Assembly (NCBI GenBank): GCA_947474495.1
Contig: CANJIM010000034.1
Location: 1 to 32,024 of the forward strand
From: Rhodospirillaceae bacterium
Lineage (GTDB): Bacteria > Pseudomonadota > Alphaproteobacteria > SMXQ01
Length of the DNA: 32,024 nucleotides
Direction: 5' to 3'
Positions 1,113 through 21,488 of the stretch are shown piece by piece; position 1 is the stretch's first letter, and the number at the start of each line of letters is the position of its first letter. The notes beneath the pieces were generated by a model. That model did no database searches. It was not told the origin of the DNA and saw only the letters and a program-made list of their open reading frames with translations. The position numbers were made by a program, and so were the translations under genes.

Positions 1113-2252
1113 ATGATGTCTGTCCTTTTCACAAGGATGTTGTCACTCGTGTGCTTGGCCGCGTTGGCGTTGCTTGCTGATGGCGCAAGCCGCTCAGCCG
1201 CCGCACAAGATGCGTGGAAAGCCGAGTGGGACAGAACGGTCGTCGCGGCAGAGAAGGAGGGCAAGGTGGTCCTCTACATGCGCCGCTACGATGCCGCATT
1301 GAAGGACTTCGCCAAGCGCTATCCGAAGATCAAGCCGGTCATCGTCACCGGCGAAGGCTCGGTGCTCGGCGCGCGTATTCTTTCCGAGCGGCGTGCCGAC
1401 AAGTTCCTCGTCGATCTCTATGTCGGCGGACCCTATACGGTGGCGGGCATGCTACTGCCGGCGGGCGCGCTCGATCCGATCAAGGACCAATTGCTGCTGC
1501 CCGAAGTGCTCGACACCTCGGCCTGGGTCAACAATGAGTTGCGCTACACGGACCCGGAGAAGAAATACAACTTCGCTTTCCTGGCGAGCCCAGGCAGCGA
1601 TCAAGTGTCCTATAACACCAAGCTGATCGACCCCAAGACGATTACGTCATATCAAGATTTTCTCGACCCGAAGTTCAAGGGGAAGATCGTCTCGCTCGAT
1701 CCCTCGCAGCGCTTCTTCGGCGCGTTGACGCAATTCATCTATTACAACCCGGCTCTCGGCGAAGGCTTTTTCCGCAAGCTTTTCGGCGAGCAGGATATTA
1801 CCTACGCGCGCAATAACCGGCAGATGACCGATTGGCTTGCCAACGGGAAATTCTCCATCTGCTTCGGCTGCCTCGCCATCGAGAAGGCGCGTCAGCAGGG
1901 TCTGCCGGTCGACAATATCGACACCACACTGTTCAAAGAGGGCGCGAGCTTTCAGGCTGCGAGCGGCTCGATCAGTTTGCTCAACAAGGCGCCGAACCCG
2001 AACGCAGCCAAGGTGCTCATCAACTGGTTCCTTTCGCGCGAGGGCCAGATCGCCGTTCAGAAAATCAGCGACGCCGGCGAGCATCTCAATTCCGGCCGCA
2101 TCGATATTCCGAAAGACGATGTCGACGAAGACAACCGCTTGGTGCCGGGGCGCCACTACTTCGACCAGAACAGTCCTGAGTGGGCCAACCTGGAGCCGAT
2201 CGACAAGCTGGCCAAGGAAATCATGGCCAACAAGCAGATGCAGGGAGAGTAA
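1113..2252 (+). CDS. ABC transporter family-1 extracellular solute-binding protein
   Basis: A 379-residue protein starting with a typical Sec signal peptide (basic MMSVLFTR, hydrophobic LSLVCLAALALLA, likely cleavage near residue 32). The mature part follows the ferric/2-aminoethylphosphonate-type binding-protein pattern: AEKEGKVVLYMRR, then SYQDFLDPKFKGKIV, then NPNAAKVLINWFLSREGQIAVQ near the C-terminus. The segment that carries the two adjacent iron-binding tyrosines in FbpA-type proteins reads NGKFSICFGCLAIE here, with no tyrosine pair, so ferric ion is an unlikely ligand and a small organic anion is more plausible. It heads a run of closely spaced genes (flavin reductase, permease, ATPase, bicupin) and should deliver its ligand to the permease at 2926. 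Confidence 0.85.
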   Translation: MMSVLFTRMLSLVCLAALALLADGASRSAAAQDAWKAEWDRTVVAAEKEGKVVLYMRRYDAALKDFAKRYPKIKPVIVTGEGSVLGARILSERRADKFLVDLYVGGPYTVAGMLLPAGALDPIKDQLLLPEVLDTSAWVNNELRYTDPEKKYNFAFLASPGSDQVSYNTKLIDPKTITSYQDFLDPKFKGKIVSLDPSQRFFGALTQFIYYNPALGEGFFRKLFGEQDITYARNNRQMTDWLANGKFSICFGCLAIEKARQQGLPVDNIDTTLFKEGASFQAASGSISLLNKAPNPNAAKVLINWFLSREGQIAVQKISDAGEHLNSGRIDIPKDDVDEDNRLVPGRHYFDQNSPEWANLEPIDKLAKEIMANKQMQGE

Positions 2253-2257
2253 GCCTC

Positions 2258-2929
2258 ATGAATGAGATGCGACCTGCATCGCGCGAGACCTCGTGGCCGG
2301 CTCCCGACGAGTTCGAGACCATCGCCCATGCCAACAAGCCATTCTCGCTGCGCGTGCCGGCGCTCGTCGTGACGCGCGGTTTGGACGGAACGTTGAACGT
2401 CATGCTCTCCATGTGGTTCACGCCGATGGGCATCGAGCCGTCCTGCTTCCTGGTCGCGGTCGATCCCAAGACCAAGACCTACGAGCTGATGATGCAAACG
2501 AAAGAATTCGTCATCGCCGCGCCGGACGAAAGCATGTTCGCCGCGGCGATCTATGCGGGTGCGGTTACCGGTCATAAGGAAAACAAGTGGGACGCGTGCG
2601 GCTTCACCCCGCTAGAGCCCAAGGTGGGTAGCGTGCCGCTGGTGCGCGAGGCGCTGGCCAATGTCGAGCTCGTGGTCGACCGCACTATGCCGTTCGATGC
2701 GAGGTTCCTGCTCGTCGTCGGCATGGTGAAGGCCTGCCATGTGAAAAGCGAATTCTTCCGCAGCGGCATCTATAAGGACGGCGCCAATCCGCTGTTGTGG
2801 CTCGGCAAGGCTTCTGGCGAGCAGCAGGGCAACAAGACCGCTGTCAATTATGGCGCCGGCATGGGCCGCACCTGGGCATCTGACGATACGTCGCCGCTGC
2901 TACAGCGTATCAAGGCAGCGAAGAAATGA
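2258..2929 (+). CDS. Flavin reductase-like (FMN-binding split barrel) protein
   Basis: A 223-residue protein of the flavoredoxin / flavin-reductase-like class. Evidence is the early PALVVTRGLDGTLNVMLSMWFTPMG (strand-turn pattern where these proteins hold FMN), followed by LVAVDPKTKTYELMMQTKEFVIAAP, the usual '..tye.i..tgefvvn.p' region. ATG 2258 is chosen because GGGAGAG ends 8 bases upstream and it follows the upstream stop by 5 bases; longer readings run into the binding-protein gene. Its stop overlaps the next start as ATGA (2926-2929), so the two are translationally coupled. A flavin reductase inside an ABC transporter operon is uncommon and suggests that import and flavin- or oxygen-dependent processing are linked. 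The electron acceptor is unknown. Confidence 0.7.
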   Translation: MNEMRPASRETSWPAPDEFETIAHANKPFSLRVPALVVTRGLDGTLNVMLSMWFTPMGIEPSCFLVAVDPKTKTYELMMQTKEFVIAAPDESMFAAAIYAGAVTGHKENKWDACGFTPLEPKVGSVPLVREALANVELVVDRTMPFDARFLLVVGMVKACHVKSEFFRSGIYKDGANPLLWLGKASGEQQGNKTAVNYGAGMGRTWASDDTSPLLQRIKAAKK

Positions 2930-4653
2930 CCGACGCGCGGATCGACGCCGCCGGCCCCCTCCCTTGGCCACGCCTACCGGCGCTGCGCTGGGGTTTTCTG
3001 CTGATGATTGGGCTGATCGGCTCAATGGGCTTTCTCGTGCTCTATCCGCTTGTCGTTATTCTTATCAACAGCTTCAACGAAGCCTCGATCGTCCATGAGC
3101 CTGTCTATGGATTTGGCGCCTGGCGTGAGGCTTTTGGTGCGCCGGGCGTGTGGCGGGCGCTGAAGAACACGGTGGATGTCGCCGTGGTGCGCCAACTCAT
3201 CACCTTTCCGCTCGGCGTGCTGATCGCCTGGGTGCTGGCGCGCACCAATATTCCTTTTTCGCGCGGTTTCGAATTTCTGTTCTGGATCTCCTTCATGTAT
3301 CCGACCGTCGCCACGGTATTCGGTTGGATGCTGCTGCTCGATCCCGATACCGGACTGGTCAATTCCGTCTTCCAAAGCTGGTTCGGAACGTCGCCGTTCA
3401 ACATCTATTCCTTCTGGGGGATCATCTGGGTCCATGTCATCAGCGGCATCGACACCAAGGTGATGCTGCTGACACCGGTCTTTCGCCGCATGGACGCAGC
3501 AATGGAGGAGGCGAGCCGCATGTCTGGCGGTGGCACCTTCAGCACCATGATGCGCGTGACGCTACCCGTGATGACGCCGGCTCTGATTGTCGTGCTGATG
3601 CTCAGCCTGGTGAGGCTATTCGAGTCCTTCGAGGTCGAATATCTTATCGGTGCGCCGTGGGGCTTTTACGTGCTATCGACCAAGATCGTCGATCTGGTGC
3701 GGAGTGAACCGCCGATGATCAACCAGGCAGCCGCGCTCGGTAGCATCGTCTTGATGTTCCTTGTCGTCATGATCCCCTTGCAACGCTGGCTGATCGGACG
3801 GCGCACCTTCGTCACCGTGACCAGCCAGATGAAGCTGAAGATCATCGAGATCGGCGTCTGGCGCTGGGTCGTCGCCGGCGGTCTGATGCTGCTCATTTCC
3901 ATGTCGGTGGTGGTGCCGGTACTCAGCGTGGCGGGTGGCGCCTTCATGACGCGCTTCGGTTTCTTCCACCTGCCGCAGACCTGGACGCTGGAATACTGGG
4001 AAAACGCCCTGACGAATCCTGGGCTGATCTCATCGCTCGAGAACACGCTGATCATCGCCGGCAGCGCCGCGCTGATCGGCACCGTCGTTTTCTCGCTGAC
4101 GGCCTATGTCCTAGTGCGCACCAAATTGCCGGGACGTGGCATTCTCGACGCCATCTGCTGGTTACCGTCTGCCGTGCCGGGCGTCTTGCTTGGTCTAGGT
4201 CTACTCTGGATGTTCCTCGGCACGCCGATCTTCCGGCCGCTCTATGGCAGCATCAGCCTTCTGATCATTGGCTCTATCCTCGGTGGCGTGACGCTGTCGA
4301 CACAGATTCTCAAGGCCAACTTCATTCAGCTCGGCCCGCAGCTGGAGGAGGCCTCGCGCATGTCGGGCGCCGGCTTTTGGCGCACCTATTGGCGCGTTGT
4401 CGTGCCCCTGATGGCGCAAAGCCTAATCCTGACTGCGATTCTCAAGTTCCTCTTCGCGGCGCGTAACGCCTCGACCGTCATCTTCCTTTCAACGTCGGAG
4501 ACGCGCCCGCTTTCGGTGCTGGCGCTCGACCAGATCGCCGCCGGCTATCACGAAGAAGCGTCGATCACAGTTTTCCTCATCATCTTGCTGACGACGGGCC
4601 TCGCTATTGCCGCGCGTATTTGCGGGCTCAATATCGGCGTGCGGGATCAATAA
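2926..4653 (+). CDS. ABC transporter permease, two fused permease domains
   Basis: A 575-residue inner-membrane protein with about 12 hydrophobic segments. It is a head-to-tail fusion of two BPD-type permease domains, each with its own EAA loop for ATPase contact: EEASRMSGGGTFSTMMRV in the first half and EEASRMSGAGFWRTYWRV in the second. This double-length layout is characteristic of the FbpB / ferric-type family and means that one polypeptide forms the whole channel. Translation is coupled to the gene before it (4-base overlap). With the solute-binding protein at 1113 and the ATPase at 4662 it makes a complete importer. It is a paralogue of the permease at 14032. Confidence 0.9.
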   Translation: MTDARIDAAGPLPWPRLPALRWGFLLMIGLIGSMGFLVLYPLVVILINSFNEASIVHEPVYGFGAWREAFGAPGVWRALKNTVDVAVVRQLITFPLGVLIAWVLARTNIPFSRGFEFLFWISFMYPTVATVFGWMLLLDPDTGLVNSVFQSWFGTSPFNIYSFWGIIWVHVISGIDTKVMLLTPVFRRMDAAMEEASRMSGGGTFSTMMRVTLPVMTPALIVVLMLSLVRLFESFEVEYLIGAPWGFYVLSTKIVDLVRSEPPMINQAAALGSIVLMFLVVMIPLQRWLIGRRTFVTVTSQMKLKIIEIGVWRWVVAGGLMLLISMSVVVPVLSVAGGAFMTRFGFFHLPQTWTLEYWENALTNPGLISSLENTLIIAGSAALIGTVVFSLTAYVLVRTKLPGRGILDAICWLPSAVPGVLLGLGLLWMFLGTPIFRPLYGSISLLIIGSILGGVTLSTQILKANFIQLGPQLEEASRMSGAGFWRTYWRVVVPLMAQSLILTAILKFLFAARNASTVIFLSTSETRPLSVLALDQIAAGYHEEASITVFLIILLTTGLAIAARICGLNIGVRDQ

Positions 4654-4661
4654 GGACCATC

Positions 4662-5885
4662 ATGGATAATCTCATTGAGCGACCCTTCATCGAACTTCGA
4701 GGCCTGCAAAAGCGCTTCGGTAATATGACGGCGCTGCACGGGCTCGATTTGCAAATCCGAGAAGGCGAGTTTTTTACGCTGCTGGGTCCATCCGGTTGCG
4801 GCAAAACGACCAGCCTGCGCCTGATCGGCGGCCTGGAAAAGCCGGACGGCGGTGAGATATTCGTCGCTGGCCAATGCATGGCCTCGGCGGCACGCCGGAT
4901 TTTCGTCAATCCGGAAAAGCGCAACATGGGCATGGTGTTCCAGTCCTACGCGCTGTGGCCGCATATGACGGTGTTCGAGAATGTCGCCTATCCCTTGCGC
5001 TTGCGTTGGGTGAAGAAGGCGACAGTGCGTCAGAAGGTCGAGGAGGCATTGGCACTGGTCGGGCTGACCGGCCTCGGCGATCGCGCTGCTCCAGCCCTCA
5101 GTGGCGGTCAGCAGCAGCGCGTGGCGCTCGCCCGCGCGTTGGTCTTCTCGCCGCGTATGCTGTTACTCGACGAGCCGCTGAGCAATCTGGACGCTTTGCT
5201 GCGCGACGAGATGCGCAAGGAATTGAAGGCGCTGCAGGAGCGGTTGGGCCTGACCGTCGTCATGGTCACGCATGACCAAGTGGAGGCGCTGAGTCTATCT
5301 GACCGGGTTGCCATCATGAGCCAGGGCCGCTTGGAGCAACTCGGCACGCCGGAAGCCGTCTATCACTGCCCGGTGACGACATTCGCGCGTGATTTTCTCG
5401 GCAAGATGTTCGCGGTAACCGGCGTTGTGCAGGAAAACCGCACCGGCCGAATCGTCCTGCGTCTGGCCCATGTCGAGGGAGAGAACATCGTCGTCGAGCG
5501 CTCCGATATGGCCGGAGATGCCTCAGCAGCACCACCGGGCACCACTGTGATGGTGGCAATCCGGCCGGAGCAGATCGTCGTCGCCGATCATTCCATCGAG
5601 GCGAGGGAGAACGTGGTGCGGGCGACAGTCGAGCGCAGCCATTTTCTTGGCGACCGTCAGGAGTATGTCGTTTCCGTCGGCGCTGAACGCCACACGCTGC
5701 TGCTGCCAGCGACTCAAGCCTCTTACAAGCCGGGCGAGCGCATCGGCCTACATTTGCCGTCCGACAAAATCACGTTGTGGAACACCGGGCGGCAGACCGT
5801 GATCGCTGCGATGGACGAGGCGATCGCCATTCCGGGGTTCATCCCGCCAACGGCCGCCGTCGGCGGCGTGCGGCGGTTGGCATAA
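4662..5885 (+). CDS. ABC transporter ATP-binding protein (with C-terminal TOBE-like region)
   Basis: A 407-residue cytoplasmic ATPase. Walker A GPSGCGKTT (residues 42-50), Q-loop Gln94 in MVFQSYALWPHMT, signature LSGGQQQR (146-153), Walker B MLLLDEP (166-172) and switch His204 in VTHDQ are all intact. Residues from about 240 on form a TOBE_2-like regulatory region (TTVMVAIRPEQIVV), typical of importers of iron, sugars, polyamines or organic anions. ATG 4662 is chosen because AAGGA overlaps the previous stop and the conserved domain starts soon after. It is the only ABC ATPase in the window, while there are two fused permeases, so it may energise both. The tail after the TOBE region (IPGFIPPTAAVGGVRRLA) looks non-conserved. 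Confidence 0.9.
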   Translation: MDNLIERPFIELRGLQKRFGNMTALHGLDLQIREGEFFTLLGPSGCGKTTSLRLIGGLEKPDGGEIFVAGQCMASAARRIFVNPEKRNMGMVFQSYALWPHMTVFENVAYPLRLRWVKKATVRQKVEEALALVGLTGLGDRAAPALSGGQQQRVALARALVFSPRMLLLDEPLSNLDALLRDEMRKELKALQERLGLTVVMVTHDQVEALSLSDRVAIMSQGRLEQLGTPEAVYHCPVTTFARDFLGKMFAVTGVVQENRTGRIVLRLAHVEGENIVVERSDMAGDASAAPPGTTVMVAIRPEQIVVADHSIEARENVVRATVERSHFLGDRQEYVVSVGAERHTLLLPATQASYKPGERIGLHLPSDKITLWNTGRQTVIAAMDEAIAIPGFIPPTAAVGGVRRLA

Positions 5886-5936: not shown

Positions 5937-7037
5937 ATGGGACGCATTGTGAAAGAGTTCGCGACAACCTGGGACGGCGATCAAAAGCTGTGGTTTGAGC
6001 GTGACGAGGATGAACTCGTCGGCACACAGCAGAGCGGTGGCGTGCCGATTCCGCGCATCCGCATCTGCGACGTGATGTCGGGACCGACCAATCGCGAACG
6101 CAACAAGGCCCCTGTGCTATGGGCGGGGGAAGACGGCGTGGTCGAAAGCCACTTCATTACCGGCGCGGAGCCGCATTTTCATCGCCCATCCAACTACGAT
6201 GTGCTGATCCTGCAGTTCGCCGGTAAGGCCGCGATCGAGACCGAGTTCGGCGAATTCCACCTGGAGCCGGGCCATGTCATGCATGTGCCGACAGGCGCGG
6301 CGTATCGCATTATAGGCAATTCGCAGTGCCATCAACTCATCGCCAAGGTGCGGGAGAAGTTCGAGGTGACCGCCGATCCGGCCAAGCCGCTGACAGAAAC
6401 AGTGTTCGACGTTCGCCGGAAGGGCGACAACTCGGAATCAGAACCGGTCGCCTTCCCGGTTCGCAAGGGCAAGATCCTCGAGATCACCGAGTTCTGGAAC
6501 GATGAAGCAGATTCCATCGTCATCGAGCGCGATCACGCCAAGTTGGTCGGCTGCGCCACCGCAAACAGTGCTCGCCGCGTCACCGTGTTGCGCGCCTTCG
6601 ACTATTTCTGCGGTATCACCGGCAAGGGCGGTGTGCGGGCACCTGAATTGTTCAAAGGCAAGAAGTTCAAGGTTGACGTCTATAACACCGAAGGTGAGCA
6701 GTACGGCTTCCATCGTGGATGCGACAGCGAGGAAATCTGGTTCCAATTCCGCGGCCAGGCGAAGAACGACACGGAATGGGGTGTGCATCACCTCTCGCCG
6801 GGCGAGATCGGTTATGTGCCGCGCGGCATTGCCCATCGCATCACAGGCGACAAGAATTTCCTTCGCTTCAACTTTTATTTTCAGTGCCAGATGCGGCCGA
6901 AGGTCGACGCCAGCCATCATCACTTGGAATCGAGCTATGAAGTCGAGACGCCATCTCGTAAAGAGCTGCCGGCCCTGGCCGAGGCGAAGAAGCGGATCGA
7001 AGAGGCGCTGGCCAAGAACCAGCAGCCGCGGATGTAA
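5937..7037 (+). CDS. Bicupin, homogentisate 1,2-dioxygenase-like
   Basis: A 366-residue protein with two cupin barrels. The N-terminal one (about 70-135) reads NYDVLILQFAGKAAIETEFG then LEPGHVMHVPTGAAYRI, resembling the N-terminal barrel of homogentisate dioxygenase. The C-terminal one (about 245-320) carries HRGCDSE, with His259 and Glu265 spaced as the Fe(II)-binding HRNCxSE of homogentisate dioxygenase, and His300 (GIAHRI) as a possible third ligand. It is shorter than true homogentisate dioxygenases (about 430-450). The likely role is Fe(II)- and O2-dependent oxidation or ring cleavage of the compound imported by the adjacent transporter. It could instead be a non-ring-cleaving cupin oxygenase. 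Only 48 bases separate it from the LysR gene. Confidence 0.7.
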   Translation: MGRIVKEFATTWDGDQKLWFERDEDELVGTQQSGGVPIPRIRICDVMSGPTNRERNKAPVLWAGEDGVVESHFITGAEPHFHRPSNYDVLILQFAGKAAIETEFGEFHLEPGHVMHVPTGAAYRIIGNSQCHQLIAKVREKFEVTADPAKPLTETVFDVRRKGDNSESEPVAFPVRKGKILEITEFWNDEADSIVIERDHAKLVGCATANSARRVTVLRAFDYFCGITGKGGVRAPELFKGKKFKVDVYNTEGEQYGFHRGCDSEEIWFQFRGQAKNDTEWGVHHLSPGEIGYVPRGIAHRITGDKNFLRFNFYFQCQMRPKVDASHHHLESSYEVETPSRKELPALAEAKKRIEEALAKNQQPRM

Positions 7038-7085: not shown

Positions 7086-8003
7086 ATGCTCGACGGCAAG
7101 ATAGAGGATATGAACGACATCATAGTCTTCGTCATGGTGGCGGAGCGCGGGAGCTTCACGCGCGCCGCCGCCAGCCTGCATCTGTCCCTACCATCGGTCA
7201 GCCGGCGCGTTAAAATTCTGGCAGACGCCTTACAAGTGCAGCTCTTCGTGCGTTCGACCCGGCATTTGTCCCTGACAGATGCCGGGCACTTTTACTACGA
7301 GCGCTGCGCCCGCATTCTCGGCGAGCTCAATCTGCTGCATGAGGAGATCGGCGGACTGACGCAAGGCCTCAAAGGCAGCATTCGTATCTACTCGCCGCTT
7401 GGCTTCGGCGAGCATGTGTTGCCGGAAATCGCCATGAAGTTCGGGCGGCTTTATCCCGATATCGTCACGGAGTTGCGGGTCGGCGACCGCTCGACGAATC
7501 CGACGGAAAAGGGTGTCGATATCGCGATCCGCACGGCGGAGTTGGCCGACAGCAGCTTGGCGTCCTACGAGCTGGGCGATCTCATGTATCACGTCTGCGC
7601 TGCCCGATCTTACCTTGAAGCTCATGGCGAGCCGCATGATCCCGGAGATCTGGCGCAGCATAACTGCCTGGTTCATACCGCGCAGCCGTCGTCCGACGTC
7701 TGGCGTTTCGAGACGCGCGGAGAGCCGCTCGATGTGCCGGTGAAAGGCGATCTGCGTTCGAACAGCGGCTCCGTCATTTTTCGCGTTTGCATGGCGGGAG
7801 CAGGGATCGCGCGACTGCCGGAGTACGACGCGCGTGCCGGCATCGAATCGGGAAAGCTGAAAATTCTGTTTTCTGGACAAATGGGCTTCACGCGGATGAT
7901 GCGTGCCTATTATCCGCGCAGCAAACATACGCCGGTGCGCATCGACCGCTTCCTCAAGTTTCTCCGGTCAGAGATCGGTCCCTATCTACGACCGCTGTCG
8001 TAG
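7086..8003 (+). CDS. LysR-family transcriptional regulator
   Basis: A 305-residue LysR regulator. The winged helix-turn-helix covers about residues 9-67 (MNDIIVFVMVAERGSFTRAA, SLPSVSRRVKILADAL, LFVRSTRHLSLTDAG), followed by a LysR_substrate ligand domain ending GIARLPEYDARAG. ATG 7086 is used; ATG 7110 fits the family's usual first residue, but its nearest purine-rich stretch (GAGGA) is only one base away, which is too close. It is closely similar along its length to the regulator at 8018, so the pair is a tandem duplication. It sits between the two transport/oxygenase modules and is transcribed the same way, so it probably controls one or both; LysR proteins usually act as inducer-dependent activators. 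Confidence 0.85.
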   Translation: MLDGKIEDMNDIIVFVMVAERGSFTRAAASLHLSLPSVSRRVKILADALQVQLFVRSTRHLSLTDAGHFYYERCARILGELNLLHEEIGGLTQGLKGSIRIYSPLGFGEHVLPEIAMKFGRLYPDIVTELRVGDRSTNPTEKGVDIAIRTAELADSSLASYELGDLMYHVCAARSYLEAHGEPHDPGDLAQHNCLVHTAQPSSDVWRFETRGEPLDVPVKGDLRSNSGSVIFRVCMAGAGIARLPEYDARAGIESGKLKILFSGQMGFTRMMRAYYPRSKHTPVRIDRFLKFLRSEIGPYLRPLS

Positions 8004-8017
8004 GAAGATCGACAAAT

Positions 8018-8969
8018 ATGGAAAATCTCAACGATATCCAGATATTTGCCAGCGTCGTCGACAAGGGCGGATTTTCGGCTGCGGCGCGCGAGCTTGGCCT
8101 GTCGCCGTCGTTTGTCTCTAAGCGCGTACGCTTCTTAGAGGAAAGCTTGCAGATCCAATTACTCAACCGATCGACGCATTTCGTCGCCCTGACGGAATCG
8201 GGCCAGATCTTTTACGAGCGTTGCTCGGAAGCGATGCGTTTGTTGAGTTGGGCGAAGGATGAGGCGCCGGAGAAAGCCAACAAGCTGAAAGGGCGCTTGC
8301 GCATCTTTGCGGCACTTGGGCTTGGCGAGTATGTGTTGTGGCGGATCGTTTCGAATTTCACGAAACGCTTTCCGGATATCACCGTGGAGTTCGAGGTTGG
8401 CAATCGCGCCACCAACGTTCTTGAATCGGAAGTCGACATAGCCTTCCGCAGCGCAGATCTCGCCGATTCCAGCTTGCAGAAACGAGACTTCGGCACGCTG
8501 CATTATCACCTATGCGCGTCACCTGCCTATCTGGCAAGCGCCGGCACGCCTGCCTTGCCGCGCTTCAACTGTCTGATCCATTTGGCGCAGCATCCCACCG
8601 ACCGTTGGCGCTTCAAGGATGCGGCAGGCGCGGTCTATGTGGTGAAGGTGAACGGGGATGTTGCATACCAACAGCAGCGTGACTGTGCATGGCGCCTGTG
8701 AGCTTGGCGTCGGCATTGCGCGCCTGCCCGCCTATACCGCGCTCGACGGCATCGCCAATGGCCGCTTGGTCGAATTATTTCCGGGCGAGTTGCACTTTGA
8801 GCGGGCAATCAAGGCGTTCTATCCACGTACGGCCCATACGCCGTCGAAGATCGCGGCCTTCTTGGATTTCACACAAGATTGCTTGGCATTGGACCAGGGG
8901 CAGCTGGCCGTGCTGCCAGCGCCGCATTGTGAGTTGCAGCAAGAGTTGACCGACGTGTCGCTGAAGTAG
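8018..8969 (+). pseudogene. LysR-family regulator, interrupted by a +1 frameshift
   Basis: Translation from ATG 8018 (AGGAAG overlaps the previous gene's stop) gives an intact LysR DNA-binding domain and most of the ligand domain, then runs out of frame near base 8655 and stops at 8701. The expected C-terminus continues in the next frame, LHTNSSVTVHG... GVGIARLPAYTALDG, to TAG at 8967-8969. Aligned with the neighbouring paralogue (KGDLRSNSG against NGDLHTNSS), removing one base between 8653 and 8661 restores a co-linear protein of about 316 residues. A run of four G (8654-8657) lies there, so a homopolymer sequencing error is as likely as a real mutation. If real, the product would lack the end of the effector domain while keeping DNA binding. 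Confidence 0.75.
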
Positions 8970-9086: not shown

Positions 9087-9917
9087 ATGGCGCTATGCGA
9101 GGGCTTTAGCCACCTTGTGCTACCCGTGGCCGACCTTGACCGGTCGGAAAAGTTCTACCAGTCGGTGTTCGGCCTCGAGCTCGTCGGTCGGAATCTCGTG
9201 TCAGAAGGCGAAGCCAATTCGCTGATGAAGGCCGATAGCCGACAGATGGTGCTGTTCATTCAGACGCCCGCCGATCAAGTGCGCATCGAGCGCGAAGGCG
9301 CCAATTCGACACACCATGCCTGGCTGGTCAAAACCCCGGCTGAATACAAGCGAATTGAAAAGCGCCTGAGCGAGCAGGGCTTTGACGTCAGCGACTACCG
9401 CGCCGCGTTCCGCGCCGCCGGCCAGTATAGCGTCGATCTCGTCGATCCCGACGGCCATCGCTGGCAGATTCAGGCGCAGGGTCCCGAGGCCACGGACGTG
9501 CGCGTCGAGAAGGCCGGCGTCATCAATTGCGGGCCGGCGGACCAATATAAGCTCAAGGACATCAAGCTGTTCAAGGAGCACAAGTTTTTCATCGTGCGCT
9601 TGGAAGAGGGAATTCTTGCGCTGTCGCAATGGTGCACCCATCAGAATGGGCTGATGAAGTGGCGCGACAACTTCTACGACTTCTACTGCCCGAAGCACGG
9701 CGCGACCTTCAACCGCGAGGGCGAAGGCACCGGTTCGGTGTTGAAGCTGCCGCCGCTGCGTCTGCATCCGGTCCAAATCAACGATAAGGGCGAAGTCGAG
9801 GTCGATACGGACCGCGTCATCCTGCGCCGCAACTTCGACGCGGCCCAGGTGGTCCCCATGGTCTGCGGCGCCAAGCTGCAGGTCGATAAACTCAAATTCG
9901 TGAAGGAGGTCGTGTAA
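9087..9917 (+). CDS. VOC (glyoxalase-fold) and Rieske [2Fe-2S] fusion protein
   Basis: A 276-residue two-domain protein. Residues 1-130 are a VOC module (FSHLVLPVADLDRSEKFY, then VDLVDPDGHRW). Residues about 143-250 form a Rieske domain whose cluster ligands are visible as C183-T-H185 and C201-P-K-H204, separated by 15 residues, the classical CxH-x15-CxxH pattern. In the VOC half the usual final metal ligand Glu (DPDGxxxE) is replaced by Gln128 or Gln130 (RWQIQAQ), so its metal site may be altered. A Rieske centre carries one electron, often to an oxygenase; its fusion to a VOC fold is unusual. GGGAGGG precedes the ATG, and the stop overlaps the next start (TAATG), so the pair is coupled. The reaction is unknown. 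Confidence 0.8.
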   Translation: MALCEGFSHLVLPVADLDRSEKFYQSVFGLELVGRNLVSEGEANSLMKADSRQMVLFIQTPADQVRIEREGANSTHHAWLVKTPAEYKRIEKRLSEQGFDVSDYRAAFRAAGQYSVDLVDPDGHRWQIQAQGPEATDVRVEKAGVINCGPADQYKLKDIKLFKEHKFFIVRLEEGILALSQWCTHQNGLMKWRDNFYDFYCPKHGATFNREGEGTGSVLKLPPLRLHPVQINDKGEVEVDTDRVILRRNFDAAQVVPMVCGAKLQVDKLKFVKEVV

Positions 9918-10390
9918 TGGCCGACATGAACAGCATCAGCCACAGCGTCATTTGCGTCGACGACCTGCACGCGGCGCATGAATTCTACGAGAACGTGATG
10001 GGGACGAAACGCACATCCTCTGTCTGCTTCGAGACAGAAGACACGCTACGCGGCCGTTCCGTCCACGACACCTACATCATTTCCGAGGATTTCGTGTTCT
10101 TCGTGGCCCTGGCGGAAAAGAAGCTTCCCAAGCCGCCGGCCGACCAGCATCGCGGCCTCGATGGTTTTCGTAGCGCCTTTTTCGTGCGGAAAGCGCAATT
10201 CGACAAGACCGTCGCGGCGTTGAAAGAGCGCGGCATTGGCTTCGAAGGCCCGATCAACCATTCGGAAAAGGGCCCTTTCGGCCAGTCCGTCTACTTCAAG
10301 GATCCCTCAGGCAATTTTTTCGAATGCCTGTGGCGGCGCGACGAGGGCACGCCGGCCTTCGAGAAGCCGTACTTCCTCGGTCTCGGTTGA
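9917..10390 (+). CDS. VOC-family protein (single domain)
   Basis: A 157-residue VOC protein made of two beta-alpha-beta-beta-beta repeats. It opens ISHSVICVDDLHAAHEFYENVMG and ends VYFKDPSGNFFECLW, so His9 and Glu136 occupy the first and last metal-ligand places. The middle histidine position (DGFRSAFFV) is not clearly kept. VOC proteins include extradiol dioxygenases, epimerases, glyoxalases and resistance proteins, so the fold alone does not give the reaction. It shares one base with the preceding gene (TAATG at 9915-9919) and is followed 13 bases later by another VOC gene, so three VOC proteins are made together. Confidence 0.8.
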   Translation: MADMNSISHSVICVDDLHAAHEFYENVMGTKRTSSVCFETEDTLRGRSVHDTYIISEDFVFFVALAEKKLPKPPADQHRGLDGFRSAFFVRKAQFDKTVAALKERGIGFEGPINHSEKGPFGQSVYFKDPSGNFFECLWRRDEGTPAFEKPYFLGLG

Positions 10391-10403: not shown

Positions 10404-11312
10404 ATGAGCTTGAAAGAGAGTGCGGCTTCGCCCGTCGAAGGGCTGAGCCATCTGATCATCGAGACGCCGGACATCAAAGCGGCGCAGGGATTCTATACAA
10501 AGCTCTTCGGCTTCGTACCGGCGGGGCAGGACATGTGGGCGGGCTGCGAGCGCAGCTCCACCTTGCGCACGCCGTCCGGGCAGTATCTGGTCTTGGCCGA
10601 CGTCAAGCCGCTAAAGGAGGATCTCGCTGTTTCAGCGGTCCATCAGGCCTATGCGGTCTCGCCAGCGGCGCGCGAACAGATCTTGGGGGCGGTCCGCGCC
10701 GATGGCAAAGAGGTCTTCGGCTATCGCGAAGATCGCCCGTCGGAGGCGGACGACAATGTCTACATCACCGATCCTTGCGGCAACAGGGTGCAGTTGTTGG
10801 CCCGCGCCAACGGCAAGGTCGGATCGATCGATCACGTCGCCATCGAAGTGAATGACATCCTCTGGTCGGAAGAGGCCTTTGGCAAATGGCTGTCGATGCC
10901 AATTGAGCATCGCGTCGGTTGGGCGGCGAAGGATTATGTCGAGGCCAAGGCCGCCGGCGAGGCGAGCGCCATCCCTGGCTCGCGCTACTGGAACGAGCGT
11001 TATTCGCAGTTCGAAACCGAACGCAAGGCGCTGCGTCCCACGCCGCAGCTCTATTTCTCGCTCAACTCGGGTTCGAGCGTCGCGGTTTATCTGGCGAACC
11101 GCAACTATCAATCGACGCCCGATACACAGCGTCTCGGTACGCCGCGGCTCGGCCTGCGCCTGCAGAAGGGTGGCGTCGACGCGGTGGCACGCACGCTTGA
11201 AGACAAGCGGGTCAAGTTCGAGGGGCCGGTGAAGCATGGTGCCAACATGCCGATCTCTCGGTCGCTTTACATGCGCGACCTGGGCGGCAATTTCGTCGAG
11301 TTCACGGAGTAG
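10404..11312 (+). CDS. VOC-family protein with two tandem VOC modules
   Basis: A 302-residue protein with an N-terminal VOC module (about 12-135: LSHLIIETPDIKAAQGFY to VYITDPCGNRVQLLA) and a second one (about 140-302: IDHVAIEVNDILWSEEAF to YMRDLGGNFVEFTE). Two modules in about 300 residues is the size of type I extradiol ring-cleavage dioxygenases. In module 2, His144 and Glu299 match the first and third iron ligands of those enzymes, but the middle His is not evident (PRLGLRLQKG), so ring cleavage cannot be claimed. In module 1 the last ligand is Gln130. ATG 10404 lies 13 bases after the previous stop and fits the domain start; longer readings cross into the previous gene. Confidence 0.75.
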   Translation: MSLKESAASPVEGLSHLIIETPDIKAAQGFYTKLFGFVPAGQDMWAGCERSSTLRTPSGQYLVLADVKPLKEDLAVSAVHQAYAVSPAAREQILGAVRADGKEVFGYREDRPSEADDNVYITDPCGNRVQLLARANGKVGSIDHVAIEVNDILWSEEAFGKWLSMPIEHRVGWAAKDYVEAKAAGEASAIPGSRYWNERYSQFETERKALRPTPQLYFSLNSGSSVAVYLANRNYQSTPDTQRLGTPRLGLRLQKGGVDAVARTLEDKRVKFEGPVKHGANMPISRSLYMRDLGGNFVEFTE

Positions 11313-11390: not shown

Positions 11391-12779
11391 ATGAAAGCCA
11401 GCGTGCGGGGCGTGCTGTCGGCGCCCATGTGGGGCGCCCTGTTGATCGGCGGCTGGATGGCGGCAGGGTCTGCCATGGCCGCCGACCTGCCGAAGGCGAC
11501 GCAAGAGATGCTTGCCAAGATGAAACTCGATCCGGCGACCTTGGTCGGACTCAACGAGGAAGTCGAAAACATTCCCGCCGCCGTCCTTGAAGGCGCTAAG
11601 AAAGAAAAGCGAGTCGACATTAGCGGCTCGATGGATGTCCGCGAATTCAACGTCATGACGCAATCCTTCAAGGAGCGCTATCCGTTCCTCGATGTGCGTT
11701 ACAGCAGCGGCGATCAGTTCTCGCGCAACATCCGGCCGCTCATCGCCTATCGCGAAGGACGCGTGTTGGTCGATATCGTCGAAGGCCTCGGCGTCAATCT
11801 CTCGGATTACAAGCAGGCCGGCGCGTTGCTCAAGCTCGACGGGATTCCGAATTCGGCGAACGTGCCGGCGGAAATGAACGACAAGGACGGCTATTACGTC
11901 GGTCCGCGTATCCGCCATTGGTGCATGACCTACAACACCAACAAGGTGAAGGTCGATGAGTTGCCCAAGACCTGGGACGACGTGGTCAATATGCCGCAGT
12001 TGCGCAATGGCCGCATGGGCCTCGGCAATCGACCGAACAATTTCATGATCATGCTGTGGGGCGTGAAAGGCCCCGAATGGTCGAACGACTTCATGAACAA
12101 GCTGTTCAACGTCGTCAAGCCGCAGTTGCGCAAAGAGGGTGCCGACGCGCTGGTCTCGCTGGTCGCGGCGGGCGAGATGGACATCTCCTTCCCGACTGCG
12201 TCCTACCGCACCGCGCAGTCGGTCGCCAAGGGCGCTCCGATCTCCTGGTGGTGCCCGACCCCGGTTCCGGTGTCGTCATCGGCCATGGTCATCATGAACA
12301 AGAGCCCGCATCCCAACGCGGCCAAGCTCTACATCAACTGGTTCCTCTCCAAGGAAGGCCAGATCGCGCAGAACTACGCCGACGGCTCGCCGCCGATCCA
12401 TCGCGACCTGCAGCAGCCGGTGTTCCTGCTCTATCCCGAGCAGACCATCAACCGCGAAGCCGCACCGCGTACGCCGCAATTGCTCGAAGAGGAAATGCCG
12501 AAGGTTGCCAAGCTGTGGGACACCTATTGGCTCGGCGGCAAGGAGCGCGGCCCGCAGACGGTCAGTACCGGCCTGATGGCGGTCAACAAGGCCGGCGGCG
12601 AGATCAAATTCCAAGGCGGCAACGATGCCATGGAAACGCTGGCGGTCAACGCCAGTCGCACCAAGATCTCCATCGCCGGCAAGGAAGCCAAGCGTGGGGA
12701 CCTGAAAGCCGGCATGAGCTGCAAGATCAGCTATGGCGGCGGCGCTCAGGGCGAAGTGCAGGAAATCGCCTGCGAATAA
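11391..12779 (+). CDS. ABC transporter solute-binding protein with C-terminal extension
   Basis: A 462-residue periplasmic protein. The signal peptide ends at AGSAMA (about residue 30). The body follows the family-1 binding-protein pattern (EGAKKEKRVDISGSMD, PNAAKLYINWFLSKEGQIAQ), related to the protein at 1113 but about 80 residues longer. The last 65 or so residues (398-462) look like a separate small beta domain: TLAVNASRTKISIAGKEA, then GDLKAGMSCKISYGG, ending QEIACE, with two cysteines (444 and 461) that could pair in the periplasm. The pattern recalls small DUF5666-like beta domains, which I offer only as a resemblance. The region holding FbpA's iron tyrosines reads AGEMDISFPTASYRT, without a tyrosine pair. 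GAGGGAGAG precedes the ATG. It should serve the permease at 14032. Confidence 0.85.
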   Translation: MKASVRGVLSAPMWGALLIGGWMAAGSAMAADLPKATQEMLAKMKLDPATLVGLNEEVENIPAAVLEGAKKEKRVDISGSMDVREFNVMTQSFKERYPFLDVRYSSGDQFSRNIRPLIAYREGRVLVDIVEGLGVNLSDYKQAGALLKLDGIPNSANVPAEMNDKDGYYVGPRIRHWCMTYNTNKVKVDELPKTWDDVVNMPQLRNGRMGLGNRPNNFMIMLWGVKGPEWSNDFMNKLFNVVKPQLRKEGADALVSLVAAGEMDISFPTASYRTAQSVAKGAPISWWCPTPVPVSSSAMVIMNKSPHPNAAKLYINWFLSKEGQIAQNYADGSPPIHRDLQQPVFLLYPEQTINREAAPRTPQLLEEEMPKVAKLWDTYWLGGKERGPQTVSTGLMAVNKAGGEIKFQGGNDAMETLAVNASRTKISIAGKEAKRGDLKAGMSCKISYGGGAQGEVQEIACE

Positions 12780-12788
12780 GGAGTTCGT

Positions 12789-14018
12789 ATGTCGGATATT
12801 CTCTCCGCGCCTCGCTCTGCCGCTTCGCGGCCGGGCGAGGTGCCGCGGCCGTCTCTGGCCGAGCGCGACCGCCGTCATGCCTTGATCCGCGCAGGCATGG
12901 CGCGCGACGGGCTTGATCTGCTGGTTCTGTCGCCCAACACGGCGCGTTGGGGCCAGATGATGGCCGATTCGCGCTACGTCACCGCCATCGGCGGCTTCGC
13001 CACGGAAGTGCTGACCGTGGTGCCGCTGAAAGGCGACATCACCGCCTATGTCTATAACCGGGCGGATTGGTGGAAGCGCGAAGTCGACTGGATTTCCGAC
13101 GTGCGCGATGGCCGTAACAAATGGGCCGAGAACGTCGTCGAGCGGGCGCGTGAACTGGGCTTGGATAAGGGTCGCATCGGCATCTCAGGCATTTCCGGCC
13201 TCGCCCGCGCGCCGAGCGGCACCGTCACCTTCGCCACTATCACGGGCATTCAGGAAGCGCTGCCGCAAGCCGAGGTCGTCAACGCCACGGCCTTGATGCA
13301 GGACGTCCGCATGCTCAAAAGCGACGAGGAGATCGGGCTGCTGGAGCAGTCCGCCGCCATCGTCGAGAAGATGATCGACGTCTGCGTCCGCACTGCCAAG
13401 CCGGGCGTCAGCGAGAAGGAGCTCTACGCCCAGATGACGGCGACCCTGCTCGCCAATGACGGCGAGTTGCCGAACTTCCTGCTGTTCGCCACCGGCCCGG
13501 GCCTGCGCCGCTCGTCCTTCGTGCCGACCAACCGCATCGTCGAGGCGGGCGACCGCATCATCAACGAGATCGAGGCGAAATACGCCGGCTATGGTGCCCA
13601 GGCCGTGGCCCCGATGACGCTCGGCAGGCCCGACCCCCTGTTCGCCGAGATGGTCGGCCTGTCGCGCCTCTGCTTCGACGCGGTACTGGCGGCGATGAAG
13701 CCGGGCGTCACCTTCGGCCAGTTGCTCAAGGTCTATGCCGACGTCGTCGCCAAGGAAGGCCAAGGCCGCTTCGGCACCGGTATTCCACTGATGCACGCGC
13801 GCGGCCTAGGCGACGACGGGCCGGCATTGCTGCGCAAGTCAGACCTGGAAACTTTTCAAAGCATTCCGCTGCAGAAGGGCATGACCTTCATCATGAAGCC
13901 GCGTCTCGTCGAGATCGACGGCAAGGAACGCGCCAGCCTCGGCGATACGGTGGCGGTCACCGCCACCGGCGCCAAGCGTCTCGGCAAACGGCCGCTCGAA
14001 CTGATCGTGATCGATTGA
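12789..14018 (+). CDS. M24 (creatinase/aminopeptidase P-fold) protein without metal ligands
   Basis: A 409-residue protein with a creatinase-type N-terminal domain (about 28-165) and a C-terminal pita-bread domain (about 180-405), the layout of Xaa-Pro peptidases, creatinase and ectoine hydrolase. Reading the five M24 metal positions from their motifs gives Glu260 for Asp, Gln271 for Asp (EIEAKYAGYGAQ), Thr330 for His (FGTGIP), Lys370 for Glu (GMTFIMKP) and Gly385 for Glu (ASLGDTV). All five are replaced, so a dinuclear metallopeptidase is unlikely. Creatinase is a known metal-free enzyme of this fold, so an amidino- or amidohydrolase or a binding role is possible. AAGGAG overlaps the upstream stop; the gene lies between a binding protein and its permease. 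Confidence 0.8.
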   Translation: MSDILSAPRSAASRPGEVPRPSLAERDRRHALIRAGMARDGLDLLVLSPNTARWGQMMADSRYVTAIGGFATEVLTVVPLKGDITAYVYNRADWWKREVDWISDVRDGRNKWAENVVERARELGLDKGRIGISGISGLARAPSGTVTFATITGIQEALPQAEVVNATALMQDVRMLKSDEEIGLLEQSAAIVEKMIDVCVRTAKPGVSEKELYAQMTATLLANDGELPNFLLFATGPGLRRSSFVPTNRIVEAGDRIINEIEAKYAGYGAQAVAPMTLGRPDPLFAEMVGLSRLCFDAVLAAMKPGVTFGQLLKVYADVVAKEGQGRFGTGIPLMHARGLGDDGPALLRKSDLETFQSIPLQKGMTFIMKPRLVEIDGKERASLGDTVAVTATGAKRLGKRPLELIVID

Positions 14019-14031
14019 ACGGAGCCCGGCG

Positions 14032-15810
14032 ATGACAGCCATTTTGACCGAGCCGACGGCCAAGCCGGCGAAGATCGTGTGGCCGCGCCTCGCCCAATTC
14101 CACCTGTGGCATTGGCTCGTCTTCCTGGTCGTGCTCGCGTTGGTCAGCCTACCGCTCGGTTTCCTCGTGCTCGGCAGCTTCTCGACGGCGTCCCTGCCGA
14201 CGGATTTCTCCTTCGCGCGGATGGACCTCAGCAATTACGAGGATGTCTGGTTCGATCCGACGACCTATCCGCTGTTCGTCAATACGGCGATCTATGTGAC
14301 GGGCTCGACGGCAATCGGGCTCAGTATCGCGGTGACGCTTGCTTGGCTCGTCGAGCGGACCAACATTCCCGGCAAGATGTGGATATACGGCTTCGTGCCG
14401 ATGACGCTGGCCATGCCCGGCATGTTGCAGGCGATGGCTTGGGTGCTGCTGCTGTCGCCGAAGATCGGCTTCATCAACTTGGCCGCTATGTGGGCCTTCA
14501 ACCTCGAGAAGATGCCGTTCACCGTCTATTCGATCACCGGCATGGTGGTGATCGAGGGCATCCGCCTTGTGCCGACGGCCTTCCTCATGCTCGTGCCGCT
14601 GTTGCGCTCGATGGACCCGACCTTGGAAGAGGCCGCCGCCATGAGCGGTGCCGGCCCGTTGTCGATGCTGCGCCGCGTGACGTTCCGACTGATGCTGCCG
14701 GGCCTGCTCGCCGTGCTGATCTATCAGGCGATGACGGCATTGGAGGTCTTCGAGGTGCCGGGCATTCTCGGCATTCCGGGCGGCATTTACGTCTTCTCGA
14801 CGAAGATCTATGCCGTACTGCACACAGCGACCGGCATTCCCGAATATGGCAAGGCCAACGCCTTGGCGCTGATCTACGTGGTGATCGCCGTCGTCGCGAC
14901 GACGCTCTATTCGCGCGTCATCGCCAAGTCGGAGAAATACACCATCGTCACGGGTAAGGGTTACCGGCCGCGTGAAATGGATCTCGGCCGGTGGAAATGG
15001 CCGGCCATCGCCCTGATCGCGGCGTTCTTGCTGGTATCGATCATCCTGCCCTTCTTCGTCCTGCTTTATGTGTCTTTCCTGCCCTTCATGCAGGTGCCGA
15101 CGACGGCGGCCTTCAAGTCGATGAGCTTCGAGAACTATCTCGAACTCGGCCGGCAGGAGTTAATCGGTCGGGTCATGCTCAACACCGTCATCATGGTGGT
15201 GATTACCTCGACCATGACGGTGATTGTCTCCTTCCTGATTTCGACGATCGTCGTGCGCAGCAAATTCTGGGGCCGCAAAGTCCTCGACCAGATGGCTTTC
15301 CTGCCCCATGCGGTGCCGGGCATCGTCATGGGCCTGGCCTTCCTCTGGGTCTTCCTGCGGCTCGACAATTACGGCATCGACATCCACGGCGGCATCCTGG
15401 CGATATCCATCGCCTTCACCGTGAGCTTCATGTCCTATGGCACGCGCGCCACCAATGCCGCCATCCTGCAAATCCATAAGGACTTGGAAGAGGCGGCGCA
15501 GGTCTCCGGCGCGCCTTACTGGCGCACCATGTGGCGCGTATTCTTCCCCTTGATGATGCCGACCTTGGTCGGTGTCTGGGTGTGGTCGATGTTGCATGCG
15601 GTGCGGCAGGCCGGCACGCCCCTGATCCTCTACGAAGGCTCGGACAATCAGGTGCTCGGCGTCTTCATCTGGAATCTATGGGATCGCGGCGAGATTCCGA
15701 TCGTCGGCGCGATCGGCGTGCTACTGATCCTCGGCCTCTTGGTCATCACCATGCTGCTGCGCTTCATGGGCTTCGGCCGCGGCGCCCATGTGCAGAAAAC
15801 CAAGGGCTAA
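14032..15810 (+). CDS. ABC transporter permease, two fused permease domains (second copy)
   Basis: A 592-residue inner-membrane protein with two permease domains joined head to tail. The ATPase-contact EAA loops are EEAAAMSGAGPLSMLRRV and EEAAQVSGAPYWRTMWRV. The first 30 residues (AILTEPTAKPAKIVWPRLAQ) are a cytoplasmic leader. The layout is the same as the permease at 2926, though the two differ clearly in sequence, so they are diverged paralogues rather than a recent copy. No ATPase gene follows: a terminator starts within 20 bases of the stop and the next gene is on the other strand. The likely energising subunit is the ATPase at 4662. The start follows the M24 stop by 13 bases. Confidence 0.9.
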   Translation: MTAILTEPTAKPAKIVWPRLAQFHLWHWLVFLVVLALVSLPLGFLVLGSFSTASLPTDFSFARMDLSNYEDVWFDPTTYPLFVNTAIYVTGSTAIGLSIAVTLAWLVERTNIPGKMWIYGFVPMTLAMPGMLQAMAWVLLLSPKIGFINLAAMWAFNLEKMPFTVYSITGMVVIEGIRLVPTAFLMLVPLLRSMDPTLEEAAAMSGAGPLSMLRRVTFRLMLPGLLAVLIYQAMTALEVFEVPGILGIPGGIYVFSTKIYAVLHTATGIPEYGKANALALIYVVIAVVATTLYSRVIAKSEKYTIVTGKGYRPREMDLGRWKWPAIALIAAFLLVSIILPFFVLLYVSFLPFMQVPTTAAFKSMSFENYLELGRQELIGRVMLNTVIMVVITSTMTVIVSFLISTIVVRSKFWGRKVLDQMAFLPHAVPGIVMGLAFLWVFLRLDNYGIDIHGGILAISIAFTVSFMSYGTRATNAAILQIHKDLEEAAQVSGAPYWRTMWRVFFPLMMPTLVGVWVWSMLHAVRQAGTPLILYEGSDNQVLGVFIWNLWDRGEIPIVGAIGVLLILGLLVITMLLRFMGFGRGAHVQKTKG

Positions 15811-19710: not shown

Positions 19711-20604
19711 ATGATGTCTGGTGTTCTGCGCAGCCTGAGGGGGACCCTCTGTGGCGCGGTTTTGCTTCTCGCGGGCGCGCCCCCGAGTCTTGCCGACGAG
19801 CTTTTCGATAGCGGCAAGCTGCTGGCGACAGGCGGCGTCTCGCAGATCGAAGGTGCCGGCGGCAGCGGCCTGGTGCCGTGGGCTCTCATCTCCGGCTATG
19901 GAACGCGCGACGCCATCGGCGCCAACGTTCATTACACCTTCGTCGGCCTCTCCGATTTCGATCTGAACACGGGCGGCATCGCCGTCGGTCTGTTCGACCG
20001 CGTCGAACTCTCCTATGCGCGTCAGGCCTTCAACACCAAGGATACCGGAATCCTGCTCGGTCTCGGCCAAGGCTTTACGTTTCATCAGGATATCGTCGGA
20101 GCGAAGGTGCGGCTGTTCGGCGATGCGATCTACGACCAGGATAAATGGCTGCCGCAGGTGGCGTTCGGTGCGCAATACAAGGCCAACGACCGGCATGGCA
20201 CGCTGACCGCGATCGGCGCGAAGGATGATGAAGGCGTCGACTACTACTTAGCCGCGAGCAAGCTGTTCCTCGCCCAAAGCCTGCTGGCGAACGTGACTTT
20301 GCGAGAAACGCGCGCCAATCAATATGGCATTCTCGGCTTCGGCGGCGATAAGAACGACGACTACAAGCTGCAGTTCGAAGGCTCCATCGCCTATTTGCTC
20401 TCTCGCCAATTGGCGCTGGGCGTGGATTGCCGCACCAAGCCGGATAATCTCAGCTTTGCCAAGGAAGAGAACGCCGGTGACATCTTCCTCGCGTTCTTCC
20501 TCAACAAGAACATTTCGCTCACGGTCGCATATGCCATGTTGGGCGATATTGCGACACAGAAAGAGCAGAATGGCCTCTACGTCTCTCTGCAGGCAGGATT
20601 CTGA
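19711..20604 (+). CDS. DUF3034-family envelope protein
   Basis: A 297-residue exported protein. The signal peptide MMSGVLRSLRGTLCGAVLLLAGAPPSLA is followed by DELFDSGKLLATGGVSQIEGAGGSGLVPWALISG, the characteristic opening of DUF3034 proteins. The rest alternates short polar and aromatic stretches (HYTFVGLSDFDLNTGGIAVGLFDRVELSYA) and ends in LYVSLQAGF with a terminal Phe, as outer-membrane beta-barrels do; this topology is inferred. A GTG at 19681 opens the frame earlier, but the signal peptide begins at ATG 19711. The stop overlaps the next start (TGATG), so it is coupled to the exported haemoglobin gene. No function is established for the family. Confidence 0.8.
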   Translation: MMSGVLRSLRGTLCGAVLLLAGAPPSLADELFDSGKLLATGGVSQIEGAGGSGLVPWALISGYGTRDAIGANVHYTFVGLSDFDLNTGGIAVGLFDRVELSYARQAFNTKDTGILLGLGQGFTFHQDIVGAKVRLFGDAIYDQDKWLPQVAFGAQYKANDRHGTLTAIGAKDDEGVDYYLAASKLFLAQSLLANVTLRETRANQYGILGFGGDKNDDYKLQFEGSIAYLLSRQLALGVDCRTKPDNLSFAKEENAGDIFLAFFLNKNISLTVAYAMLGDIATQKEQNGLYVSLQAGF

Positions 20605-21080
20605 TGCCGTCCATCGCGCATTCCCATCGTCCGCCGTGGCCGCGCGTGATGCGCGCCGCTTTCATCGGCCTGCTCGCCGCCGCGACCGTCGCGGCCGGTT
20701 TCGCGCGCCATAGCAACGCCTCAGACGATTCGCTTTACCGAGGGCTCGGCGGCAAGGACAGCATCGTGAAGGTCATCGATGTGGCCATGACGAAATGGCT
20801 GACGGATCCCCGTATTCTCGATGAGTTCGACAACATCAACATCGAACGATTGAAGTCGCGTATTTCCGATCAGATATGCCAGATCGCCGGTGGGCCCTGC
20901 CAATATAGCGGGCGCGACATGTACGCCTCTCACAAAGGCCTGCATCTCAACCAAGCAAAATTCAATGCTCTGGCGGAAGACCTGCAACTGGCGATGGACG
21001 AACTCGATATTCCCTTCCGCACGCAGAACCGCCTGATGGCTTTGCTCGCGGCGATGCAAAGAGACGTGGTGACGCGATGA
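20604..21080 (+). CDS. Exported group 1 truncated haemoglobin
   Basis: A 158-residue protein: an N-terminal hydrophobic segment (about 16-34) with a possible cleavage near NAS40, then a truncated globin domain SLYRGLGGKDSIVKVIDVAM... with the Gly-Gly turn AGGPCQYSGRDM. The haem-binding proximal His is His110 in ASHKGLHL. Aligned by eye to cyanobacterial GlbN, the usual distal Tyr (B10) is Met62 and the E7, E10 and E11 places appear as Leu, Arg and Ile, so the polar ligand-stabilising set is absent. Truncated globins bind O2 or NO; a periplasmic one next to a blue copper protein suggests redox or NO chemistry in the envelope. Genes overlap on both sides (TGATG and ATGA). Confidence 0.8.
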   Translation: MPSIAHSHRPPWPRVMRAAFIGLLAAATVAAGFARHSNASDDSLYRGLGGKDSIVKVIDVAMTKWLTDPRILDEFDNINIERLKSRISDQICQIAGGPCQYSGRDMYASHKGLHLNQAKFNALAEDLQLAMDELDIPFRTQNRLMALLAAMQRDVVTR

Positions 21081-21433: not shown

Positions 21434-21449
21434 CGGGCCTGATCGTCAC

Positions 21450-21469
21450 CGTTCGCGATGGTGCGAACG
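21450..21469 (+). terminator. Small hairpin between the cupredoxin and kinase genes
   Basis: CGTTCGC (21450-21456) pairs with GCGAACG (21463-21469) around a 6-base loop and is followed by ATTTAGTTT. It is a weak terminator or attenuator that would let some transcription continue into the kinase gene, which starts 19 bases later. Confidence 0.4.
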
Positions 21470-21488
21470 ATTTAGTTTGAAGGATTCC

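Follow-up and report, generated by a model that had tools for sequence, protein, structure and literature searches.

What could a Rieske iron–sulfur cluster do on a protein of the VOC fold? The question is raised by a gene at positions 9087–9917 of the DNA analysed here (the window: 32,024 nucleotides, contig C34 of a 2.99-Mb MAG from a Rhodospirillaceae bacterium). The original prediction saw in this gene a VOC module joined to a Rieske domain and made together with two more VOC proteins, and proposed an electron-linked oxidation that lacked precedent.

The fusion and its distribution

The gene is single and intact, lies on the forward strand and encodes 276 residues. It starts with an ATG that has a clear ribosome-binding site (aaGGGAGGgaaagcgccATG), and its GC3 of 0.80 is similar to that of neighbouring genes. 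Residues 7–131 (positions 9105–9479) form the VOC domain and residues 145–258 (9519–9860) the Rieske domain. Pfam detects Glyoxalase (PF00903, E = 7e-11, residues 7–128) and, C-terminal to it, Rieske (PF00355, E = 7e-6, residues 163–222), both above the curated cut-offs and with no other domain. The AlphaFold2 model is confident and two-domain (pLDDT 90.4, pTM 0.81), so that the proposed join is borne out by profile and model alike. The four cluster ligands, Cys183-x-His185 and Cys201-x2-His204 (9633–9698), are exactly those that had been predicted and are retained in 47/47 fusions.

The genome holds three such paralogues, the other two at 42% identity. Beyond it, the same architecture occurs in two phyla with matching VOC genes alongside, and the set comprises 47 distinct genes in 12 MAGs, with between one and 15 copies per genome; this count excludes duplicate records of identical contigs, draws every sequence from MAGs and includes two frame-shifted or cut members (L102 and L103). 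Eighteen of the genes come from eight MAGs of one alphaproteobacterial family, each with one to three copies. The remaining 29 come from four Chloroflexota MAGs, which were found by scanning the genomes of 84,980 species with the 18-member alignment, and about 15 of them are carried by CoA_1_bin.38 (G393). Unlike the alignment scan, a single-protein pattern scan of genome contigs gave no match, the patterns being too specific. A Pfam scan of 45 members identified Glyoxalase in all 45 and Rieske in 44. The suspicion that the join might be an assembly artefact, or a chance motif, is dispelled by 47 fusions in 12 genomes; the fusion is a recurrent and amplified family and not a one-off. A viral origin was also rejected, the PHROG match being weak and confined to the VOC part.

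With the top few candidates per genome scored, a sample of the class to which the window belongs yielded the fusion in two of 385 genomes, both inside the family. Under the same scoring, which rare distant members could escape, none was seen in the other Pseudomonadota sampled; plasmids gave no fusion match. The cassette described below is patchily distributed within the alphaproteobacterial family. Three genomes of the same genus or family (G001, G002 and G006) are without a full-length fusion match. Two irregular loci may be recorded here: at L102:4005–5411, in a Chloroflexota member, a frameshift splits the gene between its VOC and Rieske parts, and at L105:6163–8281 two VOC-Rieske genes lie near each other with small VOC genes close to each.

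Kinship of the Rieske half

It had been claimed that Rieske centres usually feed oxygenases. This is not where the comparison leads for the fusion, the Rieske half of which groups with proteins of bc complexes instead. By sequence and by fold its best match in the PDB is the bc-type protein 9rk4 (profile E = 1.5e-20; Z = 16.2, r.m.s.d. 2.0 over 110 residues), which confirms the Rieske fold itself, and the best dioxygenase ferredoxin among the matches listed has a profile E of 2.4e-5. The nearest stand-alone relatives in Chloroflexota are bc-complex Rieske subunits encoded next to cytochrome b and c genes, and a C-terminal tail motif (VDT...R..F...Q.V) is common to them and the fusions. A tree of 92 Rieske domains, in which the outgroup is thinly sampled and branches are long, sets fusions and bc proteins apart from Rieske oxygenases and two ferredoxins on a branch of 100/98. 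Fusions and bc proteins all have a cluster-ligand spacing of 15, the oxygenases and ferredoxins one of 16. Judged by these comparisons, the Rieske half resembles the quinol-oxidising proteins of bc complexes and not the dioxygenase ferredoxins.

The bc/b6f Rieske proteins, represented by Kuste4569 of Kuenenia (PDB entry 9rk4), are the closest found in sequence, fold, spacing and tail motif, but they are membrane-anchored and carry a characteristic serine and disulfide. The fusion has no N-terminal membrane anchor. The disulfide cysteines (CTHxxC...CxCH) are present in ten of ten bc relatives and in seven of the nine fusions that belong to a two-gene version of the locus, and in 0/38 of those in cassettes. 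The serine lies two residues past the last ligand; it is found in all ten bc relatives and is absent in cassette and two-gene versions alike, with one exception among the 38 cassette members, where it is mostly replaced by alanine. Mutation of that serine in the yeast Rieske protein drops the potential by about 130 mV (PMC12954380). From the loss of both serine and disulfide we infer a lowered potential for the cassette fusions. A high-potential respiratory Rieske protein would thus have been converted to a lower-potential one, a direction that depends on the rooting of the tree. No cytochrome gene was noted beside the cassettes, where the neighbours are VOC and catabolic genes.

The VOC half, its partners and their surroundings

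The N-terminal half has the paired beta-alpha-beta-beta-beta fold of the VOC superfamily, and structures matching it are FosX, FosA, ChaP and similar single-module proteins (Z about 13–15). Its metal-ligand positions are His9 on strand 1 (9111–9113; His in 44 of 45 homologues), His76 on strand 5 (9312–9314; 46 of 46), which rather than His77 is the conserved middle histidine, and Gln127 (9465–9467) in the sequence DPDGHRWQ, where classic VOC enzymes have glutamate. The equivalent ligands of FosA are His7, His67 and Glu113 (PMC10779102). The exchange of glutamate for glutamine had been taken as the loss of a ligand. The glutamine is indeed there, but it is the norm of the family and not the decay of a site in one protein: position 127 is Gln in 41, Glu in four (all Chloroflexota members) and Arg in one of 46 sequences. 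With Gln so frequent and both histidines kept, the metal site has probably been modified and not abolished. Gln and Glu alternate at this position, which could bind metal with either residue. Glutamine is a weaker metal ligand than glutamate and is unusual in dioxygen-activating VOC enzymes. In one fusion copy at L105, Lys replaces His9.

FosA, FosB and FosX share fold and ligand positions (His, His, Glu/Gln) with the VOC half. The fusion differs from them in its glutamine, its Rieske domain, its multi-gene cassette and in giving no sign of thiol-transferase activity or resistance; as a fosfomycin-resistance protein it was rejected, the best NCBIfam score being 32 bits where the cut-off is 180. 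Scores against the type I extradiol dioxygenase families of NCBIfam are likewise far under the cut-offs.

The two additional VOC proteins are encoded immediately downstream on the forward strand. The first gene (9917–10390) shares one base with the stop codon of the fusion gene and specifies a 157-residue partner VOC protein with His9, Ser86 and Glu136; the second (10404–11312) specifies a two-module VOC protein of 302 residues with His80, Gln130, His144 and Glu299. This order, VOC-Rieske, 157-residue VOC, two-module VOC, is recurrent. A partner VOC gene lies downstream on the same strand in 45 of the 47 fusions (in one case with the help of the overlapping locus L105), in both phyla and usually within about 130 bases. 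In the Alphaproteobacteria the 157-residue VOC comes next in 18/18 and is followed by the two-module VOC in 16/18. The full cassette is also present in Chloroflexota, as is the two-gene version, consisting of the fusion and one VOC protein of about 165 residues, similar to module 2 of the two-module protein. At L110:7593–8966 and L084:2–1153 the partner is itself naturally fused to the two-module protein, so that one chain holds three VOC modules. Recurrent cassette and natural partner fusions together provide strong circumstantial evidence, at the level of gene arrangement, for a physical complex.

Within the partner family His9 and Glu136 are found in every copy that covers them and His86 in 33 of 37; the window's own partner has Ser86 in place of this middle metal-ligand histidine. 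Fusions with Glu127 tended to have partners lacking His86 (Fisher p = 0.005, from counts made by hand), but most cases belong to a single clade, and this association was set aside as not independent. The two-module protein retains His80 and Gln130 in module 1, and His144 and usually Glu299 in module 2. Its AlphaFold2 model (pLDDT 89.3, pTM 0.88) matches PcpA (4huz, Z = 21.2), 1zsw and 3oaj along the whole length with Z about 21. Fold and catabolic setting are thus shared with PcpA/MhqO-type hydroquinone dioxygenases and type I extradiol dioxygenases (BphC, XylE), from which the system differs in the ligands His80, Gln130 and His144, in having no middle histidine in module 2 and in an extra Rieske subunit. 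FosA- and PcpA-type proteins share metal sites between modules. In the same manner a His-His-Gln site could be completed between fusion and partner (a partner histidine with His76 and Gln127), and another could form within the two-module protein (His144 with His80 and Gln130).

The surrounding genes, all on the forward strand, form a cluster with two ABC importers, a bicupin, LysR regulators, flavin reductases and an M24-like protein. It begins with the solute-binding protein, permease and ATPase of the first importer (1113–5885, including a flavin reductase at 2258–2929), followed by the bicupin, which is weakly homogentisate-dioxygenase-like (5937–7037, Pfam), and a LysR-type regulator (7086–8003, Pfam). 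A second LysR-type gene (8018–8969), next to the fusion on its upstream side, has a frameshift near 8650–8701 and is either a pseudogene or an assembly error. Downstream of the cassette lie the solute-binding protein of an ABC importer (11391–12779), a family that occurs near the cassette in many relatives, an M24 (creatinase/prolidase-like) protein (12789–14018) and an ABC permease with two BPD_transp_1 domains (14032–15810, Pfam). The M24 protein is a conserved neighbour and frequent cassette companion, is more creatinase-like and appears to be without the usual metal ligands; the Asp/Glu pattern is absent from its aligned relatives too. Further along, at 19711–23420, DUF3034, truncated-globin-like and cupredoxin-like proteins and a sensor histidine kinase follow one another and may make up a unit for gas or redox sensing.

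Cassettes elsewhere have bicupins, UbiD, amidohydrolases, LigXa-type Rieske oxygenases and importers in their vicinity. Immediately upstream of the cassette at two loci, L033 and L039, are the genes for both subunits (alpha and beta) of a ring-hydroxylating dioxygenase. For some alphaproteobacterial loci, where the self-trained caller mis-called strands, the first gene caller and six-frame profile matches were used. The genomes that carry the fusion are unusually rich in Rieske domains, with 32 matches in the host of the window (G000), 33 in G010, 16 in G004, 60 in G391 and 149 in the 3.9-Mb genome of CoA_1_bin.38, an extreme enrichment in Rieske oxygenases. This is in line with the dioxygenase expansions reported for SAR202 Chloroflexota (PMC6946804). 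A BphA4-type reductase (PF14759) occurs once each in G004 and G010 and was found in none of G000, G391 and G393.

Possible functions of the proposed complex

We consider it close to an even bet, on the cautious side, that the cassette encodes a multi-subunit VOC metal enzyme with a built-in Rieske electron supply for oxidative catabolism. The fusion would be its redox subunit. The VOC half would hold a mononuclear metal, probably Fe(II), bound by two histidines and a glutamine, and the site would most likely be completed across a VOC–VOC interface with the co-encoded partner or partners, the arrangement known from FosA-type dimers. The cluster of the fused Rieske domain, stripped of its high-potential features, would hand single electrons to this metal, which would then activate O2 for attack on an imported substrate, an aromatic or some other resistant organic acid. 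The whole would amount to an oxygenase driven by a Rieske cluster, with the VOC fold as its catalytic scaffold. The identity of the metal, the shared site, the direction of electron flow and the oxygenase chemistry are all put forward here by inference; electron-linked oxidation, as originally proposed, is a reasonable one from the sequences. A Rieske-fed VOC enzyme is favoured because both cofactor sites are conserved together, with Gln or Glu at position 127 in 45 of 46 sequences alongside the histidines and cluster ligands, and because the potential of the cluster is probably lowered. The recurrent cassette with its natural partner fusions, the confident two-domain model, the whole-length match of the third protein to a PcpA-type hydroquinone dioxygenase, the catabolic neighbours and the abundance of Rieske domains in the carrying genomes count in its favour. 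The glutamine ligand, the missing BphA4-type reductase of the host, G391 and G393, and Ser86 in the window's partner count against it.

The same neighbours would suit a humbler task, in which the VOC proteins cleave rings as Fe(II) dioxygenases that take up no electrons during turnover, and the Rieske domain does no more than bring Fe(III) back to Fe(II), as XylT, a ferredoxin on its own, does with catechol 2,3-dioxygenase. Oxidation inactivates extradiol dioxygenases, and ferredoxins restore their activity (PMC2590616); most partner VOC proteins have a full His-His-Glu triad. XylT-type ferredoxins would resemble the fusion's Rieske domain in being Fe–S carriers dedicated to a VOC-fold dioxygenase. 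These known reactivating proteins, however, have a plant-type cluster on a separate protein, not a fused Rieske cluster; a fusion that has lasted in 47 genes, with a conserved glutamine site of its own, points to more than sporadic repair, and the window's partner is without the middle histidine. We regard a repair role as unlikely. A ferredoxin role, with the fusion supplying separate ring-hydroxylating oxygenases and its VOC half docking or acting on the product, draws on genomes rich in Rieske oxygenases and on L033 and L039, where the cassette occupies the place that a ferredoxin gene usually takes relative to the alpha and beta genes. Most cassettes adjoin no ring-hydroxylating oxygenase, however, and the Rieske half groups away from dioxygenase ferredoxins. 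The BphA3-type proteins that serve such oxygenases are small, stand-alone and paired with a BphA4-type reductase; the Rieske domain here is fused, and no such reductase was found in G000, G391 or G393. We find this role distinctly unlikely.

Electrons might instead run the other way, from a substrate oxidized by a VOC oxidase or dehydrogenase through the cluster to the respiratory chain. The bc-type kinship and the cysteines kept in most two-gene members speak for such an arrangement, but loss of the serine in both versions and of the disulfide in 38/38 cassette members should lower the potential, and neither membrane anchor nor adjoining cytochrome gene was noted; we think it improbable. The VOC half, finally, may not be catalytic at all and may bind a ligand or product, leaving the Rieske domain as sensor or structural leftover. 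VOC folds of the bleomycin-resistance type can act purely in ligand binding, and the change from Glu to Gln weakens a metal site. Near-invariance of the metal-site histidine pair and of the cluster ligands over two phyla exceeds what binding would need, however, and a non-catalytic role has in our estimation little chance of being correct.

If the Rieske-fed VOC enzyme is correct, the closest functional parallel would be the Rieske non-heme iron oxygenases, such as naphthalene dioxygenase and vanillate O-demethylase. They too combine a Rieske cluster and a mononuclear metal site (predicted in the fusion) on each polypeptide, have catabolic neighbours and deliver electrons from cluster to metal, as is likely in the fusion. 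Their catalytic fold is the helix grip (Ring_hydroxyl_A), with the Rieske domain N-terminal and a spacing of 16; the fusion has a VOC fold, a C-terminal Rieske domain of bc type with a spacing of 15, and metal positions His-His-Gln. More tentatively, and with appreciable doubt, the fusion may stand for a new class of non-heme metal oxygenase driven by a Rieske cluster. Such an enzyme would unite a bc-type Rieske domain with a VOC fold, be heteromeric with a shared His-His-Gln site, have arisen independently of the known Rieske oxygenases, reach some 15 copies per genome and attack recalcitrant organic matter.

Both domains are already known, and what appears to be new is their union in a recurrent VOC cassette. 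Among the PDB matches listed no chain covers VOC and Rieske domains together, and a literature search found no description of a VOC-Rieske fusion, in keeping with the supposed lack of precedent; annotated but as yet uncharacterised members may exist in UniProt or InterPro. The non-heme iron supplied by Rieske clusters sits, to our knowledge, in essentially a single catalytic fold. Had the VOC fold independently entered into such a pairing, this chemistry would have arisen more than once. With bc-type cysteines in the two-gene version and none in the cassette version, the change of a respiratory Rieske protein into a catabolic one would become directly testable. The fusion could also serve to flag uncultured members of the Alphaproteobacteria and Chloroflexota as possible degraders of resistant organic matter.
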